64,000 nucleotides of DNA from Halisarca cf. caerulea (taxonomy: Eukaryota; Porifera; Demospongiae; Chondrillida; Halisarcidae), in NCBI GenBank assembly GCA_963170055.1, contig CAUJGJ010000029.1:275701-339700 (forward strand), in the 5' to 3' direction. Under the pieces are notes generated by a model, which had not been told where the DNA came from, searched no databases, and was given only the letters and a program-made list of their open reading frames with translations. Made by a program: the position numbers and the translations under genes. Positions within the stretch are counted from its first letter, which is position 1; the number at the start of each line of letters is the position of its first letter. Below, one piece after another: positions 24,076-53,813 of the stretch.

Positions 24076-27000
24076 TCATTTTGCCCTATAAAATTAAATT
24101 AGAATCTGTACAGAATGCTCACAGCAGGCCTATATAGCAGGCTTTTGTACATTACCAAACATTTTAGGGGATTTTGGGGAGAAAGAAGCACTCATTTCTC
24201 AAATTTACAGTGTTATCCATGTGTGTTTCAATCCTTTCATTATCTATTAACACCCTCTTCTTTTTCTCTCCTTTCCCCCCCTTACGGGTGACTATGTACC
24301 CCAGCTTGCGCACTAAGCAGCATCAGTAGTCACCTTCACTGTGTGTGGTCTGTGTCTACATTATTAAGTGATTGTGTTTGATTACTGTCTGGAACATGTT
24401 GTATTCCCATCACAAGCATCTTACTTACGTGCATGTATGTATATTTTAACCCAGTCAGTGTCAGGGCAAGTTTTGAATAATAGTACACGCATGTGGAACA
24501 TGTCCAAATCTGCCCTGCGTGCTAATTAGGTGGAATCCGAGCGAAAATGTTATTCAATGGCTTCAAGTCATGTGACATGTGCATGATAAATCGTGAGGAT
24601 AATATGTGTACGCATTAAGTTTGTTTTTCTGCAGCAATCATTTTGCATTTTCTGTACACTTGCGAACATTCATCCCGATAAAATTCGTTCAATCGTATTC
24701 GTTCTGGGAAGAAGGTTGGCTAAAGTGCGTTGATAATCAGTATTTTAATATCCCGGAAACAGCAAGACGTTCCGAGATGGCATGCTATTTTCTCTCAACG
24801 GGTTCAATTCGAACCCATTGAGGAGAAAAATGAAGATAGGCCATTCTATTCTAAAGTAAAACATTCGTTATTTAGATTCAAAAGCAACGGCTACCGCCGG
24901 ATATTACGCACCTTACTTCGACTCTGATATCCGACGATAAAGTTCTTTGCATCGTCGTCAAAAGTATCCTCCTCCTGTTACAAATGTTCTGACTCCTTTA
25001 AAATGTATTTCGTTCGGCGTATCATTCACTGCCATGCTCGTCGTGTCTTCAGACCGAATTTAGTCCTCACGTCCACTGTAGTACATCACGCGCATGTCAT
25101 GTGACAAAATGGCCTCAACGAGTCATTCGTTAAGGTGTATCTTTAATGGCCGGGAGCCAAAAAGTTAAGGCCGATTAGCCTAGTCTTTTTAGATTTTTCG
25201 AATAATCATAGGCAACTTTAGTCCAGCCAGCTGGACCCACGTTTCGTATTGTAAGCGCCCCCCGCGGGTGCGCAGGGAGAAAAACGTGGGTCCAGCAACA
25301 GTCGCTAATTGAAACCTGGTATGGCTTTGGCTTTGATCTGACCACAGTTGACATAAGCGAATGGCATTGACATAACACACGAGTGTTTGCCGCGCTATAC
25401 GTATACGTTTTCATGGAGCGCGAAAGAGCAGAGCGATGTTGCCGACTTTGCTGTGCCATTCCCGGTTCTTCTACAGTCTATCGTGTTTTCAACAAAATGG
25501 GATCTTATACCCAAGTTGGATGCTTATTGATGCAATATACCCAGACATCGATTGATGACGAGAAGGAAAACAACCCATCCCTTTGTCAGCGCTGCTATAA
25601 GGAGTTGAACGCCTTGTCCAAACGCGAATTCGATTTGAATCGAAGTAAAGAAGATATGAAGGCGAGAATGAAGAAGGCTGATGTGTACTTCAGTCGTCGA
25701 AAGAGATGCAGAGGGATAACAGATAGCAACACAGACTCAATATTCAGTACACCAACAAAAGGGGCGCAAACGCCATCACCAAAGCAGCGTGTTCCACCTG
25801 CATCTTCTAGTCCCATACTCACTATGAGATCTGTTCGACCACTATTTATGTCACGACCAATCGGCACATCTGATCCAGCAAATACTGTACCAGTTTTGGC
25901 ACCATCACCAGCTGCAAGCTCTAGTCTGAGACCCACTAGGTCTGTTCGACCACTACTTGTGTCACTAATGACTACATGTGATCCAACAAATACTGCGCCG
26001 GAGTTGGGACCAGTAAGCATTGCTGAACAGGAAGAACCTTTAGCTACTGAGCTTACCATTTCTGATAGTGAGACTGCATGTGCAAAGTCCACGTCTGGGG
26101 ACCACTGTGATACAGCCTCCCCAGAAGTAGAGGTATGTTGAAAGTTTGACATATTAATTTAAAGGGCTATAGATAAAGGCCCATGTGAATGCAACACAGT
26201 GCCTATGTATAACATTGAAAATTTATTTTGATGCATGCAGGGTATTGTACAACAACTATTGAAAGAAGTGACATCCCTCTGCTCAATCACATCTCCTTCC
26301 CTCTTTCGTCTGTGCACAAAAGAATGCCTAACAAACTTCTCGTTGTTAAAAATGGCAAAAGAAGTGGAATCAAGAGCTCCCCTGATGTACAAGCTCCTGT
26401 CCGTCATGTCACAAGGTGGAAGTTCTCACCAGAGATCTGCTCAATCAACACACAGTCATGAAGCCAGTATTGTTGTGGCTACTGCCATTCTTTTACGGGA
26501 AAGAAATATGCATATGAATGCCCTTCCGTATATTTTGAGTATTCTTCTTTGGCATGGCAATGCATCAAAGGAAGTAAGACTACACGTGCCATGCATTATC
26601 ACAATGTCACAATCATTTTATTCTGCAGACTATGGAGCGTCTTAACCAAGTGCACCTATCCGTCTCCCATACATCCCTTTTAAGAAAGCTTAGTGAACTA
26701 GGGGAAGATTTTGATAGAGTGGTTCATATGTGGAAGAATGGTATGTACATATGTCACAATGATAAGTGTATAATATAATAAATTAAATATATTTTTAAAT
26801 GGAATGATCATATTCACTTTCTCTTTTTCAGATAACATATCATTCCAGATAATAATGGACAATGTTGATAAAAGATGCAAGGCTCGTTACATGACTATGA
26901 ACAACCAGAACAAAGATCACCATTGGTGTAATGCATATGCCCACAGAAACAGAATAACTGCAGGTATGCTGCTGCATGGTACGGTAAAATGCATGCATGT

Positions 27001-27701
27001 ATTAATACCGTGACTGTCATATCAAGCATATTAATTATGCATGCAACATTAATAAACTACCTTGTCAGAGAATCTGGATGACAAGAAGCCACAAGGGAAT
27101 ATTGCCAACACACCACTCCGCACCTTTCTGCCATCTATTGAAGCATGTTGCCAGCTCAGAAATGACTTCACAGCACTGACAGCCAGAGTGATAGTTAATA
27201 CAATCCCAGCATTTCATACTTTAAAAGATGTTGTACCCAACCACATTCCACATGTTTATATGAAGGAAATGTCACAGGCATCAGAAATGGTGAGTTTATG
27301 ATAACTGCTATGTGCATGCAGTGTCAAAATAATCATTCTCATGCATACAATACTTTTGTCATGCACTCAGATTCCACTGGAAGTGCTGCTCAAGTCGGAG
27401 CAAAAAACAGATGAAATGATCGACATATTGGACACCTATCACAAATATGTGAGGAAAATGGGTAGCATATCTGATGTAGTCGGGACAGTGATGCTTGGAG
27501 GTGACCAATTGACAGTTGAGAGGGTGCGTTGTGCTCAACGTGCCAGAAGTCAATCTGAAAGTAGCCATCTACGCTTGGAAGGGTTACACCCCAAAATAGA
27601 GGATTGGCATGCTCTAGTTAACTTCTACCAGGTATATACGTATTAATAATTATGCTGGTCTATATGCCATTGGTTAATTTATTATATAACGTACGGCCAT
27701 A

Positions 27702-27750
<49 letters not shown>

Positions 27751-27793
27751 ATGTGCATGTGTGTGTGTGTGTGTGTGCGTGTGTGTGCGTGTG

Positions 27794-27871
<78 letters not shown>

Positions 27872-30800
27872 TGCACAGAATGTTCATGAATTGCATTAAA
27901 TGCAGTGTTCATTATAATACATGTAGATCATTTGGTCAAAACTGTACAAAGTGGAATCCAGAAGAGATCAGGGTACTCTGTATCAATTGCGAAACATTAT
28001 CCAACGGAGAAACGTAGTGTCTGATCCAATGGATAATTTCAGTGCATGTTCCGACTTTCTGAATTTGGTACTAAATGCACACATTGTTGTGGCCACAGCT
28101 AATGTGTTGGGATGTGATAAGGTCAAGGATATTACACTGAAGCACTTGATTCCAGAAGGCGAGCAGGCCAGCAAAGAACAGCAGTTGCGGTACGTTGAAG
28201 GCCTTGCAAGGAAAGTTGTTGCCTCTTTTGCTATGTACAATGCAGAGGAATGTCAGCTAATAGAAAGTGGACATGGTCCAGATGGAATTTTCAATTATGC
28301 CTGTACACTAATGAATATGGGAATGCTTGCAAGAAACATGCAGGATGCAAGTAGTGAGGGTGATGGCGAGAGAGTCATAAGATGTTGGCGATTCCTCTTT
28401 CTTCACTATAAGGCAGCAGGCCACAGCAAATAAGCCATCGAAGCCTTCCGTTTACTTGCCGATGTTGATGTAATGTTAACAGCAAGGCAGGCACATGAAC
28501 TTATGTGGAATAGAACATGCTCTGTTCGAGGTGGCAAAGGGAATAATGTTCCCCTAGATTTGAAAATGGAGCATTTTAATAGAGAGTTTAAGGGGAATAT
28601 TTCCCGGTTTTCATCCAGCATCAATGAAGCCAACATCAAAAGAACGTCAAGAGTTACCAAGGAGGTTGCTGCTGTAGCAGCATTATTTGATCAAACAGTC
28701 GGTGTTAAACCACAAACTTCGATATCTAAGAAGCCAGATGTGTCAGACGATTTACAAAGAATTATACAAGAACTTGAAGCAGCCAATGTGTTCAACTTTC
28801 AACCCAACCGATACCATGTGGCTTTCAAAGCAATGCCTCGGCATCCTTTTACACCTATTATCAAGGATTTAAATAAGTTTCACAAGTGGGTGAGTGCAAA
28901 GAGAGATGAACTGACTAGAGAAAAGTTATTCAGGGAATTCACCCAAACAAGACCGTTAATGAAAGCCATTCAAGCAGAACACTGTTATGCCAGGTTGTAG
29001 CAATAATTTATGTGGTATATATATACCCTCAGACTATTTAAAGGGCAAGCATGTTTTTGATTTGTGCTGATACAGTAACATGCATGGTCTCACAACAGAT
29101 TTGCATAAATAAAGCAACACGTCAATTGTCAGTTATGAATGCAACTCCATACTTTTCGATGAAATTGACCTTATAAGTTTCATTATGTCATGTTCACTTC
29201 CCCAAACTGGACACAAGGCGGTTAGTTCTTCTACTGTGTTGATATGGTGGGCATTACGAACAATTGTCTCTATTAGTACGTCACTCATACCAGTGATAAG
29301 CTCTTCTTGTAGAGGAAGTTCATCATGACCAGAGTACTCTGCATTGCACATTTCTTTCAGCTTCTTCTTTAACATCCTAGCTTGCTGATCTGTCCACTGA
29401 CTATTAGTGTCATTCAATGATGCCACTGGCCTTTGAATGGCAGGTCTGTCTGGTATGCACTTGGGCCGATCCAAAACACAGGAGCCACATTTGCACATTT
29501 TGGTACAGATATCACAGCAATTGTGCAAAATTGGTATTGATGAATAGGAACCAAGGTAGCCCTTGAATAATTGATATCGGCGACATATTAGACCCTCCTT
29601 ATGAAATTCAGTCTTGCAGTACTGCTTCATACTCTTTGATACATGGCCACGCAGTGCCCCTGGATAAAGATAAATGACTGCGTGGCTTTGCTTGGTGTCT
29701 CTCCCGGCACGTCCCGATTCCTGCACATAGTTGTCTATTGCACTGGATGGACCAAAATGTATTACGTGGCGAACATTAGGGATATTAACACCCATTCCAA
29801 ATGCAATGGTTGAAAATATTACTCGGCACTTCCCATCTGTCTTGGAAAATGATTCCAACAAAATTTCTTTGTCTGAGTCGGTAATTTTTGAATGGAACAT
29901 TCCAAAAATCGCATTTTGCAGGATACATTTTCCTGTTGGAATGTAGCCACATTTCCCAAGTGTTGTTGCAAATGACTGATAAAGCATGGCACAATCATCA
30001 ATTCGTCTACAAAAGATGAGAACCTTTTCACATGCTTTTCCCTTCTCCCGTAATTCATCTAATAGCCAAGAGAACACACTTGGATCTGATTGGGGTATGT
30101 GATGTACAGCAAATCTTATATTAGACCTATTAGGTGATTCCACAATGTACGCTACATCCTGCATTCCAATTATCTTCACAATATGTGCCATTGTTGTTTT
30201 CGTTGCAGTAGCTGTCATTGCAATCATAGGTGTCTCCATCCTTGTGAAGGACCTTATATCCCCTAGGGAAGCATAGGCAGTCCTAAAAGGTGAATCCCCC
30301 ATTCCCCACTGCACAATGCAGTGAGCTTCGTCGACAAAAACAGCACAAACTGACTCCCGAAAGTCGTCCTTCCTCATAATATCCACCCATTTTCTTTCCT
30401 GCATGGCTTCAGGACTCAGAAATACATAATTGGCGTCTCTCAATGGCACCTTCTGCGGGTCCTCTCCCCACGACAATCGCGCGGCTTTTTGTCCTCTTTC
30501 CTGTAAATCTTGGACTTGAGAATCCATAAGTGATATTAGCGGTGATAATATGAGTACCTTTGAAGTTCCAAGTGGAATATTATTCTTTCTGTCAACGCAT
30601 AACGGTGTTAATTCGAATATCAAGCTCTTCCCGAATCCAGTTGGTAGGTTGATGAACGTATCGCGACCAGATAAGATGTACGAAAGTGCCTCTCTTTGTT
30701 GAGGAAGAATTGAGATATCGCTCTTGCCGATAATCTGCAAAGACGAACGAACAACTTCAGAGAAACTATCTTCACCGCAGCCCTGTAACGCCATGTTCGT

Positions 30801-33800
30801 CAGCCCAGAAAACGTGCTTAATTAACGATAATAGGCAAGCGACCACAAGTCGTGAATCTTATTAACCAAAATCTGTATCAATGGGATCTGATAGGTCAAA
30901 TCTTACGCAACCATAGCGACTGTTGCTGGACCCACGTTTTTCTCCCTGCGCACCCGCGGGGGGCGCTTACAATACGAAACGTGGGTCCAGCTGGCTGGAC
31001 TAAGGCAACTTTAGACTTTCCATGTGGGGGATTTTGATTGTTGTCTTCCTACAAAAGTTACAAGCCAAAATGTGAGTGTCTGTTGTGTCAATTTATGGTT
31101 TTCAGTGATTTTCTCAGTAACTGTTCCACGTACAAAAATCCCCCACATGGAAGTTTTAGATATTGCTATAAGGAACCTCTTTACCCTTTTTGGTCTCCAT
31201 AGCTTTCAATCTCCAGTGGCTCCCGGCGTTTTTGTGCCTTTAGATATGACGAAGAAAACTACTTCTAACTTCGTCTTCACATATGCTATTACTTCGATTT
31301 TGGGCTCAAAATGGAGACAATACAACACGCTACACGATGATATTTCTTTCGAAGAGATACAATAGACCTACGAAAAGAAATGGGACCAAAAGCGAACCTA
31401 ATTTTTTTCGCAACCTGAAGACTTACAAGTGCAAATGGACATGTTCCACATGCGCATGTTATTGAGTGAAGTCGATTGTTAGTTAGTTTAGTAGTTTGAG
31501 ATAATTGTGATACCACAAGTTGGAACAGCAAATATACGCTTTAAACCTTCAAGAGGCAACACACCACCTTTAAACACCTTAGAAACACTAAATTAACATG
31601 CATCTACAAATCTAAGTATTAAAAATACCAAACGTAAGAACCATCCAAAAAGGAAACGACAGGTGGCAATCGTCTTCGAAATCTTCACTGTGGTATGCGT
31701 TTGGCTTCAATTCCGGGAACACTAATACGTAGATTTGTTCTTCTGACTTCATAGTGACATGGATAAGAATTTGGCAGCTACAGTACAATTTTTGAGCAAA
31801 TAGGATGCATAATAAAACTTTAGTCCAAGTAAAAAAACCAAAACTTTACTCGTATCACATGATACACACATGATACGAAAATTGCACAATCACACTCTAG
31901 TTTCCATGAATGGTTTCCGTATTGGTTGTTTGCTTGTGTACAGTGGTAAAACAAGTTCAAGAAGGATTATCGAATGATAAAATAGTTCTAGCTTCTCTTT
32001 GTGTTGTCCTGCATGTAGCAGGGTAGTGCTACCATTCAAAAACTTCAGTGTATGTACGATTATAGGTTTATTATGACATGCTAAGCACAAAATTGATGGC
32101 TTCATCTGCGATGTTAAGGGCATACGATAGAGCATTAACAATTAAAAGAAAAAAAGACAAGTTACTAACTTAGTTAAACGTATGGATCACGGCGGCCTAC
32201 CCTGATCATGCATAAAACCAATGGAGATCCTCACAATGCACAAAGGTACGCAGGTTTTCACAAGTCATTGTTGCCAATAATCCGTTGTAAATCGTGAAAA
32301 ATGCCTGGCCCAGTATATTCACTCAACAAGTGAACGTTCTATCTTACGAAGAAGTATACTGCAGTACCACATCACATGCGAACATGTGACAAATGACACC
32401 TTACTGATTTTCACAATGAATTAGGAATACAATAATTATGTCAATGCAAAATGGCAGGTCGACCCGCCACCTTAATAGAAATGCCTATTACTCGAATTTG
32501 GGCTACTTCCTCCCCCCCCCCCCCCCCCCCCCCCGTGTGTAATGCTTGTCCAATATATATTTGGGATTCAAAGGAAGTCTAACAATAGAGAATTTATATA
32601 ATGGTAATAGAGAAGGATAAATTTATACTAGAATGAGTTACAGGAATTGTTTTCAAAACAATGGCCAAATATGGCAATTGTTCTCAAAACAATTGTCCAG
32701 TTACAATAAACAGTATGTTCAATGAATGTTCAGCTGCTCAATGCTTTGCAAATGACTCGAGTGCCTGGGGCGGCAGCCGGCACAAGTTATTAACTCAAAT
32801 TACATGTTTTCCTATACCAATGTATTTTCAGTCGAAAACATTCTTGTAATCATATTCATTGGGTGTAGTTTGCTCACAACCAAACGTTTCCACCTGTTCA
32901 CATGGAAACAATTTTCATACATTTGAAGATGGCCATGAGATACGCACAAACGGTGGGTAAAGAGAATAAATAGGTTAAAGAAGTAACGACGAGGCTTTTG
33001 TAAGTGACCTATGACTATAGTATCTGCTGCTGGCTGGACTAAATGGTCTGAATGGCATTGTAAATTTAGAAAGAGGGTATTATTCGCCATGACGAGTGCA
33101 TACAAGTATCAAATGGCTTAATATAATAATAATGAGCTGTAAGTAGGTTGCAAGACAAGGTAGAGCGAACTTATGAAACTTTTGCCGGCATCTGCCATTT
33201 TGAAAATCCCTGAATGTGGCATTTCCAATTGTTTACACAGTGATGAATCAGAAACGTTTTCATACAAAAACACTGCAAAGGGCTGAAAACGATGGCATTT
33301 TCATCATTTTCATGTAAACGCAAGGTCAAAACGCAACGATTTGGAAACGAATTCGACTGAAAACATCTTCGTGTAAACATAGCCTTAAGTGAGGGCCTAC
33401 TGTGACTTCACAACAAAAATGGCAACTATTTCGAGTGATAATTCCGGAAGTTTCATTCGGTATGGAAGCATTTTAAAAGAGTTTAGGAACCATATATGAG
33501 CATATTGGATAACTTTCTACAGTTTTAAGCCAAGCTATAGAAACAAGTTAGCACACCTTTAAAATTTCAAATATCAACAGAATGGAAAGAGATGGCAACT
33601 TTGGTGAAGTTGCACCTACATATACATGAAACATCAGGAAAATGACTGTTTTTCTAAGGTTGATGTAAAATCAGCTTTGCCGAGGGTCAGAATTCTTTCT
33701 GATCATCTTGCTTTCTGCTTTCATCGGCTTGTCATACGTTAAAATTTCAACAATCATCTGAAGAAAGTGTTATAATCAGGTATGGTTTCCTGCATGTGCA

Positions 33801-50319: not shown

Positions 50320-51266
50320 TTAATGTCCTGAAGGGGCTCCTTCCACTTTAATCACATCAGGTAGAACTTTCTGCAAATGATTAATATATCTTGCGCAAAC
50401 ACTTGGTGTCAACTTCTTCCAGTACTGGCGGATTCCTGCCTTGAGCTCTGCCAGATTTTTGGGCTTCACCTTGTCCTGGAGGAATACCTTCAGATTGCCC
50501 CACACCTTCTCAATCGGATTGAGATCAGGACTCTCAGCAGGACCTTTCCACCAGTTCACACCATTCTCGCTGAAAAAGTTTTGAATGTACCGTGATGTAT
50601 GTTTGGGATCATTGTCCTGGTAAAGCCTGTGACCATCTGGGTAAGCCATCTGGATAAATGGTAACAAGGCAGCAGACAAAATGTCACCATACCGTGTTGC
50701 AGTCATTATGCCATCGAAAATGACTATACCAGTGGCACCACGCTTGGATATTCCTGCCCACACGTGAACTTTCAGTGGGTGTTTGTACTTATACTTCAAC
50801 TTTCTTGGCTGACCTCTCTTACGGAAACTCTTTCGTCGATGTACCTCTAACACAACAGAAGATTCATCTGTAAATATCACATTGTCAAATTTCTCCTCTT
50901 CTTTCAACCGGTCTTGGCACCAAGCAAGCCTCTTCATTTTATTTTGTTCTCTAATTGCTTGACAATATCGAGCTGTGGAATATGTCCAGCCTAAATCTTG
51001 TCTTGCCCAAGCTACAGTCCTTTCAGAATAGGCTAAGGGTCCAAACTCTGCTGTCATGTGCTCCATTAGATCTCCTGCAGTGAGCTCATCATTTCCTGTC
51101 ATGAGCTTATCAATAAAGTGATAATGTTCATCAGGCATTAATTTAGGATGTCCACTCCTAGCACTGTCACGTACACTTCCTGTATTCTCCCATCTAGATA
51201 TAGTGCTCCGAACAGTTTGCCTTGTAGTGATGATTCCTTCCGATGCTAATGACCGCTGAATTGACG
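50320..51266 (-). pseudogene. Tc1-like DDE transposase, split near its N-terminus
   Basis: Open from before 51,138 to the stop at 50,320. Residues upstream of the annotated Met continue the frame (SIQRSLASEGIITTRQTV, then RSTISRWENTGSV), a paired-like HTH. The catalytic core is complete: FTDESSVVLE (first Asp), QDNDPKHTS (second Asp) and SPDLNPIEKVWG (last acidic residue is Glu or Asp by family; here the DLNPIE motif is present). The C-terminus ends EGAPSGH. The N-terminal codons continue beyond 52,456 as KISGKSATY, so the gene is broken only by the nested element. Confidence 0.85.
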
Positions 51267-51268
51267 TA

Positions 51269-52456
51269 CGGTAGGAGGCAAAAGTTTGGTCACGTTTGGT
51301 TTCGAAAAAACGAATACAAAACTCTATAGCGTTTCGTTCCGTTTTAGTCTTGCTTTTCGTTGTACGCTACTTCGTTTTACTGTGTTAATTGCAAAGGAAT
51401 TCCACGCACATAAATACTAAAAACGATAACTTATACCATCGTCGGCATTTAATGTGAGATTTCTTATAAGCGAACTTCAAGCCTTAGGATGTTTTTCAGC
51501 GATTACACCAAACGTAGGATCGTGTTCTTTCATTCACGTGGGCACAAAGCTCCAACAATCAGGCATCGTCTTCGCGAGGAAGGAATCGACGCATCAAGAG
51601 AGTGCATACATAGGTTTATACAGAGATATAAACTTACAGGTTGTATCCAACAAAAGCGAGCGTCTGGGCGGCCATCGAAGGTTACGAGTGAAGTGCGGAA
51701 GCTAGTGGACGATATCATGGAAGAGGATGATGAAACCACGGCTCACCAGATCCACCAAAAGCTGCAAGCGAGAGGCTTTAACCTGTCTCTCAGGACAATA
51801 CTCCGCTGTCAAAAGGCCCTGGGATGGAATTATTGAGGGAGTGCATACTGCCAAATGATACGCCAAGCGAACAAGGCAAAGCGACTCGAGTGGGCGCAAC
51901 AGAATCAAAGCGACAATTTTGAAGATGTCATCTGGACAGATGAATCTACTATACAGATGGAGACACATCGTCGTTTCTGCTGCAGGAAGAAGACACAGAA
52001 GCCCAGATACAAGCCGAGGTAGGTATCTTAACGCAATCTAACGCCATTTTGTCAGTAAAATCGTGTTCGATTAGGCTTAACATCCGTGTCATAGGAAATG
52101 AACTGTTGATTGCGCTGTTTACAATTAAGTATTCACAATCATATACTATAGGGCCAAACATCCTGTCCACTTGGTCATTTTCTTCGTAATCTCTCTCTCT
52201 CTTTCGAATATTCGTAGATTGCTGGGTTGTCAAACTGACTTAATATCGCAAGCATTCGTTCGCTTTTTATAGACAACGCTAGAAGACGCTTTAATAGACA
52301 CCTTGCGTATTTTCCCGCCATTCTAGCGTTTTTACGGTTTTCCGTTTATTTCCGTTTCATTCTACTTTGTTCCGCTTCCGTATTTCCTTGCGTTGGAACG
52401 AAAACGATGTACTGTTTTGTAAAAACGAAACGTGACCAAACTTTTGCCTCCTACCG
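51269..52456 (+). mobile_element. Tc1-like element nested in the transposase above
   Basis: CGGTAGGAGGCAAAAGTTTG and its inverted copy are flanked by TA; 1,188 bp. It has inserted into the host transposon's transposase codons. Same family as 43,055-43,766. Confidence 0.85.
51489..52020 (+). pseudogene. Tc1-like transposase fragment of the nested element
   Basis: N-terminal HTH (TKRRIVFFHSRGHKAPTIRH) and second DNA-binding part are open to a stop at 51,834. A shifted frame then reads RQANKAKRLEWAQQ and VIWTDESTIQME (first catalytic Asp) before the similarity ends. The remaining two thirds of the catalytic domain are deleted. Confidence 0.8.
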
Positions 52457-52823
52457 TATATGTGGCAGACTTTCCACTGATCTTCCATAAGGCAACAACT
52501 CGTTCTCACTGATAAGGTGTAAGGCCCATCTTTCATAGAATGTCAAATTGACTTGAAGTTTCTAAACTATACTGGCCATTTTATAGGGTATATTGGCCCA
52601 CATGATTGCACAGACCTGCTAATTGAGCCTAATTTTCACGTATATGGCGGACTCAGTTGTAATTTTTAACAAAATTTCATTGGCTACTGGAGTTATCCTC
52701 AAATTTCCGCGGATATCTAGTTGTGACCTTTAAAAGGGTAGGTAATTGTGGGTATAGTATCCAGCGCGTCCAAGTGACTGCCTACGAGCGATAGTATACG
52801 TTGAGCGATTGTTAGAATTCAAG
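52457..52823. promoter_or_regulatory. Divergent intergenic region of the BEN-carrying transposon
   Basis: Holds the short 5' codons of the transposase (minus, to about 52,520) and the leader of the BEN gene (plus). Both genes must be transcribed outward from here. No TATA box is convincing; TATAGGGTATATTGG at about 52,581 is the nearest match. Confidence 0.4.
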
Positions 52824-53813
52824 ATGTCTTCCAGCGGTAAAATACAAGTGGAATGGTTAGATGGACGATCCCAAGGGAAAAGATCCTGGATCAAGAGAAA
52901 GGACGTGATAAAAGGAGATGTTCTTGTTGGTCAGGTGGTCGGTGCGATATGGGGAAAGTCGAAAAAGCTGTATAGCTGCAAGGTTATCACACTCCCGGAT
53001 AACGAAGTATCGCCTGAGATTCCCGTACAAGCAGCGACTCGGACGTCGGCCGGAAAGCAGAGTAGAGTGAATTCAGAAAAGCCGTTTACTTTTGAAGTAG
53101 CAAGCCCACCTTCCTTTCGTGAAACGGTCCAGGAAGAATCGGATTTTGTGAGTGATCAGGATTCTATTACCAGTACTTGCAATGAGGTACGACGAAAGCC
53201 TGATGGACTGGCCATAGAGGACATTGCCGAAGTGTTGAGACAAAGTGGCTTATCTGACATTAAGCAGTATTTTGACGATTTGGCAGACAGCATCTCCGGA
53301 TTAAAGGCCAAAATTGCGGTACTGGAGCAAACTCTCCTAACTCGTCTACCAGAACCTTCGCCTACACTAGTTGAAGATGGCCCATTGACATCTACACTGG
53401 TACAGCCTGAAGCAGACGCAGAAGCCACCATTCTGAGGGAGATCGGTAATTTGACTTCTGATAGGTCTAGTGCCCGTGCTGTATGCGATACAGGACTGTC
53501 TGGGAGCGTCTCCTCTGAAGGTCAGAAAGTCTCCGTAGCCCATACAATCCTCCGACAATGCATGAATGGCTGCAAATCAAGAAGAAATCTGGCAGGGAGA
53601 TTAACGCAGACCCTCTTCACAGAGAACGAGAAGAGAATCTCCAACGTTCGCGGCGTAGCAGGGAAGGTGGCCTTGGATGTGTGGAGAGTGGAAGCGATTC
53701 AGGAAGCTTGCTACCAGCAGTTTCCAGCGGATAGAACAGAGTCCAAGATTGCCACAGACAGAGAACTAAGAAATGCTATGGACAAAATTTGTAGAAAATC
53801 CAGGAGCAAATGA
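52824..53813 (+). CDS. BEN-domain protein, intronless, transposon cargo
   Basis: 329 residues from the ATG at 52,824 (an upstream in-frame extension uses a TTG). Residues about 5-50 (KIQVEWLDGRSQGKRSWIKR, then GAIWGKSKKLYSCKVI) form a small basic Tudor/chromo-like fold often found ahead of BEN domains in such animals. The middle is acidic and Ser-rich with a coiled-coil-like segment (YFDDLADSISGLKAKIAVLE). Residues about 240-325 match BEN: SRRNLAGRLTQTLFTENEK, SNVRG, then ALDVWRVEAIQEAC and a basic end. BEN domains bind DNA or chromatin. It lies inside the terminal repeats of a Tc1-type transposon, opposite the transposase, so it may regulate or assist transposition. Confidence 0.75.
   Translation: MSSSGKIQVEWLDGRSQGKRSWIKRKDVIKGDVLVGQVVGAIWGKSKKLYSCKVITLPDNEVSPEIPVQAATRTSAGKQSRVNSEKPFTFEVASPPSFRETVQEESDFVSDQDSITSTCNEVRRKPDGLAIEDIAEVLRQSGLSDIKQYFDDLADSISGLKAKIAVLEQTLLTRLPEPSPTLVEDGPLTSTLVQPEADAEATILREIGNLTSDRSSARAVCDTGLSGSVSSEGQKVSVAHTILRQCMNGCKSRRNLAGRLTQTLFTENEKRISNVRGVAGKVALDVWRVEAIQEACYQQFPADRTESKIATDRELRNAMDKICRKSRSK

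Follow-up and report, generated by a model that had tools for sequence, protein, structure and literature searches.

The window analysed here is a stretch of 64,000 nucleotides from contig CAUJGJ010000029.1 of the sponge Halisarca cf. caerulea. It contains a 5,784-bp element with perfect terminal inverted repeats (TIRs), inside which a gene for a DUF6589 protein and a gene for a RecQ-family helicase converge (Table 1). An earlier note, made from the letters of the window, had drawn attention to 89-bp inverted termini with these two genes between them; profile matches confirmed the identity of both genes, and the termini proved to be 100% complementary over 90 nt (25218-25307 and 30914-31003), or 89 nt when the boundary is placed at 5′-TAG.

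The DUF6589 gene has 950 codons before its final stop and six introns, all GT-AG, with exon limits set by eye from reading frames and splice signals, not from transcripts. Its last exon matches the Pfam DUF6589 family: the part preceding the internal stop scores 60.9 bits, the part following it 19.5 bits (cut-off 27), and the read-through in the genome search 95.3 bits. The protein is 25-41% identical to homologues among the matches listed. Its N-terminal segment resembles zf-AD weakly (16.9 bits, short of the cut-off of 28; E 0.0077), and weak zf-AD matches are found in three of 38 aligned DUF6589 homologues. The helicase matches Pfam DEAD (75.7 bits) and Helicase_C (66.4 bits), both above cut-off, and is considered divergent because its score against TIGR00614 recQ_fam (192.9 bits) falls under the cut-off of 219.8. 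Its best matches in the PDB are 1oyw, ‘ATP-dependent DNA helicase’ (3.3e-38), and 4tmu, ‘RecQ’ (4.3e-38), followed by RECQ1; judged by sequence, its core is of the RecQ type.

Table 1. The element, its genes and its insertion site, in window positions (TSD, target site duplication).
Feature	Position	Strand	Evidence
Left part of interrupted ~1.17-kb repeat	24488..25218	+	Empty-site matches, copy comparison
Left TSD copy, 9-bp AGGCAACTT	25210..25218	+	Junction comparison
Whole element, 5,784 bp	25219..31002	.	TIR boundaries and duplication; second copy on contig C412
Left TIR, 89 bp, 5′-TAGTCCAGCCAGCTGGACCCACG	25219..25307	+	Boundary at 5′-TAG
Inverted pair of GCTGGACCCACGTTT copies (25230-25244, 25282-25296), candidates for paired binding by the transposase; mirrored in right TIR	25230..25296	+	DNA fold of TIR
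DUF6589 gene, seven exons: 25413-26132, 26241-26573, 26629-26740, 26832-26963, 27069-27289, 27371-27631, 27927-29000	25413..29000	+	Frames and splice signals
N-terminal four-cysteine segment (CxxC...CxxC), weakly zf-AD-like, candidate DNA-binding domain	25413..25616	+	Pfam, below cut-off
D398 codon, first candidate catalytic residue (DNVDK; beta1 in model of a relative)	26858..26860	+	Conserved in 15/15 covering sequences, the window's included
D551 codon, second candidate catalytic residue (GGDQLT; end of beta4)	27503..27505	+	Conserved in 31/31
Intron 6, largely GT microsatellite	27632..27926	+	Repeat content and gene model
Internal TAA stop in last exon, window copy	28431..28433	+	C412 copy open through same exon
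E808 codon, third candidate catalytic residue (MEHFN; last helix)	28569..28571	+	Conserved in 29/30
Intact RecQ-family helicase, single open frame, 553 aa from first ATG (562-codon frame 29133-30821)	29133..30794	-	Convergent to DUF6589 gene
Right TIR, 89 bp, perfect match to left TIR	30914..31002	-	Boundary at 5′-TAG
Right TSD copy, 9-bp AGGCAACTT	31003..31011	+	Junction comparison
Right part of same interrupted ~1.17-kb repeat	31012..31454	+	Empty-site matches, copy comparison

Ends, target site and copies of the element

The 194-Mb assembly (454 contigs) was searched for related ends. The 90-nt terminus has 41 matches, including the two of the window, and a 24-base tip pattern (two N, at most two mismatches) has 360 matches genome-wide against one for the reversed-pattern control; therefore, chance is not a reasonable explanation of the tip matches. 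Folded as DNA, the TIR is more stable than any of 200 shuffles (z -4.91), and the two inverted 15-bp motifs within it may be paired binding sites for the transposase.

The earlier note had described an exact 7-bp duplication at the junctions. The direct duplication stands, but its length has to be revised. Taken singly, this locus fits 7 bp, with an element reading TTAG..CTAA, just as well as 9 bp, with one reading TAG..CTA, and so does its empty site. In other copies, any of C, A, G and T may precede the TAG tip (TAGTCCAGCC), and the stretch shared by the flanks is exactly 9 bp long in most cases and exactly 10 bp in two, which assigns the T/A pair at the outer limits of the 90-nt repeat to the duplication; a 7-bp duplication was rejected on this evidence. 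Thirty end pairs comprise 20 with an exact 9-bp duplication, two with an exact 10-bp duplication, four with a degraded one and four with none. The 15 pairs from stretches around TIR and DUF6589 matches contribute 11 exact 9-bp, one exact 10-bp and one degraded duplication (7/9), with two lacking any; the 15 further short inserts, defined as inward-facing tip pairs at most 600 bp apart among the exact-match places listed, contribute nine exact 9-bp, one exact 10-bp and three degraded duplications (7 or 8 of 9), with two lacking any. The end-finding script returned no ends at L064 or L066 (the latter contains N runs), nor at seven DUF6589 loci (L001-L006, L008) represented by stretches of ~4 kb each, too short to expect both ends.

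When the flanks were joined with one copy of the duplication (113 nt), 40 matching places were found, all spanning the junction; 36 match over the full 113 nt and five are identical. The target is a ~1.17-kb repeat with inverted termini of its own (CGCATGTGGAACATGTCC..), 97.8-98.7% identical to the four other copies compared. Thus the element inserted cleanly into a different repeat. C412 carries a second copy, 5,812 bp long, which aligns to the element of the window with 5,753 matches, 31 mismatches and 28 gap columns (99.5% identity at aligned bases) and has a different duplication of 10 bp (GTGCTCGCTT); from this the family appears to have moved, and recently in evolutionary terms. Two diverged elements, on C242 (5,536 bp, duplication CAAATACTC) and C241 (5,991 bp, 1368247-1374237, duplication TGTTGACTG), both start with TAGTC and carry convergent DUF6589 and helicase genes.

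Other tip-bounded stretches vary in size. A 912-bp short relative at C79:1219138-1220049 (L046) has an exact 9-bp duplication (CGTGGGTCC) and lies just inside the outer end of a tip-bounded stretch (1219072-1224045) that has no duplication itself, a nested insertion. A ~20-kb stretch at C369:4420975-4441192 has tips and an exact 9-bp duplication (GGGTGGCGG); because 7 kb separates its DUF6589 match from its helicase match, later insertions have probably split this copy. At L067-L080 (for example C290:7038480-7038529, C352:304221-304266 and C150:3205918-3206033), transposon tips enclose tiny inserts of 46-134 bp. Four of the 15 short inserts described above (46, 50, 68 and 116 bp) are perfect palindromes, consisting of one terminal repeat and its mirror image and nothing else, each with an exact 9-bp duplication; of the others, eight are 81-99% and three 32-77% self-complementary. 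Either elements as small as these can transpose, or the palindromes were longer when inserted and have since contracted at the centre.

A DUF6589 candidate transposase linked to a helicase

The genome search gave at least 124 DUF6589 matches (102 of 187 candidates scored), merging into 90 clusters, and at least 88 helicase matches (77 of 357 candidates scored), merging into 72. A helicase cluster lies within 8 kb of 57 of the 90 DUF6589 clusters, in convergent orientation for 43, on the same strand for 14 and divergently for none; 33 have no helicase cluster within that distance. When helicases were shifted along contigs, whose lengths were approximated from the matches, 500 trials paired 2.7 clusters on average and never more than 8. 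The second gene order is exemplified by L066 (C369:5472555-5480552), where the helicase follows the DUF6589 gene in the same orientation, in a frame of its own. This linkage and the delimited elements establish that DUF6589 is repeatedly part of mobile elements in this genome, with two gene arrangements, which supports the placing of one such protein inside a mobile element in the earlier note. Its remark that such proteins are usually uncharacterised holds for the animal and fungal records examined.

The candidate catalytic residues D, D and E are conserved among the homologues that cover them. Together with the predicted topology they are as expected of a DDE transposase, in keeping with the earlier proposal that DUF6589 might be one. 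In a comparison that reaches just the transposase families listed by VIA, the best fold match of the DUF6589 model is Hermes of the hAT superfamily, at 8% identity over aligned residues; both have a helical insertion preceding the last catalytic helix. The end offsets of the VIA alignment would pair D125 of the model with D180 of Hermes and E555 with E572, catalytic residues of Hermes. In contrast to this re-alignment, Foldseek found no match for the model in the PDB at E 0.001 or better, and a DUF6589 profile search of PDB sequences gave one match, at chance level. On an RNase H fold of the candidate transposase, the two structural comparisons therefore differ. No transposase family, and specifically neither a hAT domain nor MULE, is among the 25 of 31 Pfam families shown for 38 DUF6589 proteins, a comparison from which HMMER filters drop weak matches.

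DUF6589 proteins are present in animals and a fungus, and are also encoded at loci in viral contigs; sponges and bivalves are among the relatives named. In four DUF6589 proteins (P0017, P0018, P0019 and P0047), the second D is separated from the E by an insertion that resembles a C2H2 zinc finger, seen by Pfam in P0018 (17.9 bits, under cut-off) and by eye in the rest.

Classification and proposed mechanism

The AcademH lineage of the Academ superfamily was reportedly described by Kojima in 2020 (Mob DNA 11:15), from animals and fungi according to the title. That title is confirmed by two citing papers (PMC10045372, PMC10799480). AcademH elements generate duplications of 9 or 10 bp and AcademX elements of 3 or 4 bp, a difference related to the encoded helicase or nuclease (PMC10045372), and a RecQ helicase in Academ was mentioned as early as 2013 (PMC3627910). 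The earlier note had set its element apart from Academ because of 3-4 bp duplications; these are a property of AcademX, so that argument lapses. Four traits of AcademH are found here: a RecQ-type helicase within the element, duplications of 9 or 10 bp (exact in 22 of 30 end pairs), conserved D, D and D/E in the transposase (D398, D551 and E808, with catalysis predicted from sequence) and TIRs (89 bp, perfect). The element is therefore very probably an AcademH-type DNA transposon and the DUF6589 protein its DDE transposase, the fit being to published descriptions; the name AcademH is applied on the strength of the helicase and the duplication length as given there.

A separate, unnamed DDE superfamily that acquired a RecQ helicase independently of Academ would agree with the lack of a transposase family among the Pfam families shown, but is unlikely, given that two specific published features, the RecQ-type helicase and the 9-10 bp duplication, both hold and that occurrence in animals and a fungus fits AcademH too.

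DDE transposition is the most likely mode of movement, and the data fit cut-and-paste and copy-type movement alike. The AcademH-type transposase would bind the ~89-bp ends through the two inverted motifs in each, cut at 5′-TAG..CTA-3′ and join the ends to target positions staggered by 9 bp, sometimes 10, with repair turning the stagger into the duplication. The helicase is most likely an accessory factor that might open DNA, whether at the ends or within the strand-transfer complex, or help to process the gap. A replicative or repair-dependent mechanism had been suggested from the helicase partner; nothing in the data shows a replicative one.

A bolder and rather doubtful extension is that Pfam DUF6589 (PF20231) as a whole represents the catalytic part of DDE transposases of the AcademH type, arranged like Hermes, and that transposon and helicase both generate and move the end-to-end palindromes. 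In that case, some 23 bp at each end would suffice for mobility, or the helicase-bearing machinery would make palindromes by strand snap-back.

The element type is already known. A link between DUF6589 and AcademH-type transposases was not found in the literature searched, outside which lay Kojima 2020 and most subscription papers; because of this limit, priority for the link cannot be claimed. DUF6589 proteins gain a probable function as DDE transposases, with candidates for the catalytic residues, and the likely mis-call that a duplication of 7 bp speaks against Academ is corrected. The element, with its near-identical second copy, is testable and could serve to study the part that a RecQ helicase plays in DDE transposition.

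Elsewhere in the window, an open frame on the reverse strand (50320-51366) encodes a transposase (Pfam DDE_3, 68.1 bits), presumably Tc1/mariner-like, and a 351-aa open frame on the forward strand (52758-53813) weakly resembles a BEN domain (18.5 bits, under cut-off). Rfam found nothing at gathering thresholds over the whole window.

Comparison with known systems

Elements of the hAT superfamily make 8-bp duplications, while MuDR elements commonly make duplications of about 9 bp and have long TIRs. Capture of a helicase by an element like hAT or MuDR would account for Hermes being the best VIA fold match, with its helical insertion in common, and on duplication length alone MuDR would fit. Such an origin is nevertheless highly improbable: the duplications in the end pairs examined are 9-10 bp, unlike those of hAT, neither family is among those shown for the 38 proteins, and a common fold at 8% identity does not make a family. 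The helicase partner also sets the element apart from Hermes.

Kolobok elements duplicate TTAA; the end pairs examined have duplications of 9-10 bp and of varied sequence. A helicase-bearing Kolobok element is on this account the least credible origin, even though a DDE transposase and a RecQ helicase are shared with KolobokH and with Kolobok-1_CCri, whose RecQ gene is on the complementary strand; KolobokH is reported from fungi only (PMC9587614).

AcademX, which belongs to the same superfamily as the element if the AcademH assignment holds, has a nuclease and 3-4 bp duplications (PMC10045372), whereas the element has a helicase, and the duplications in the end pairs examined are 9-10 bp. No nuclease domain was detected in the element's frames given to Pfam; the genome-wide nuclease search, made for XPG_I only, gave two matches, neither inside a delimited element. 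One of them (C241:1374761) is near the diverged DUF6589 element but outside its ends, so an XPG partner was rejected. AcademH, with a helicase in the element and duplications of 9 or 10 bp (PMC10045372), is the closest of these systems by description, and its occurrence in animals and fungi, going by the title, parallels that of DUF6589; the gene order in the window is convergent, and a same-strand variant exists in the same genome.

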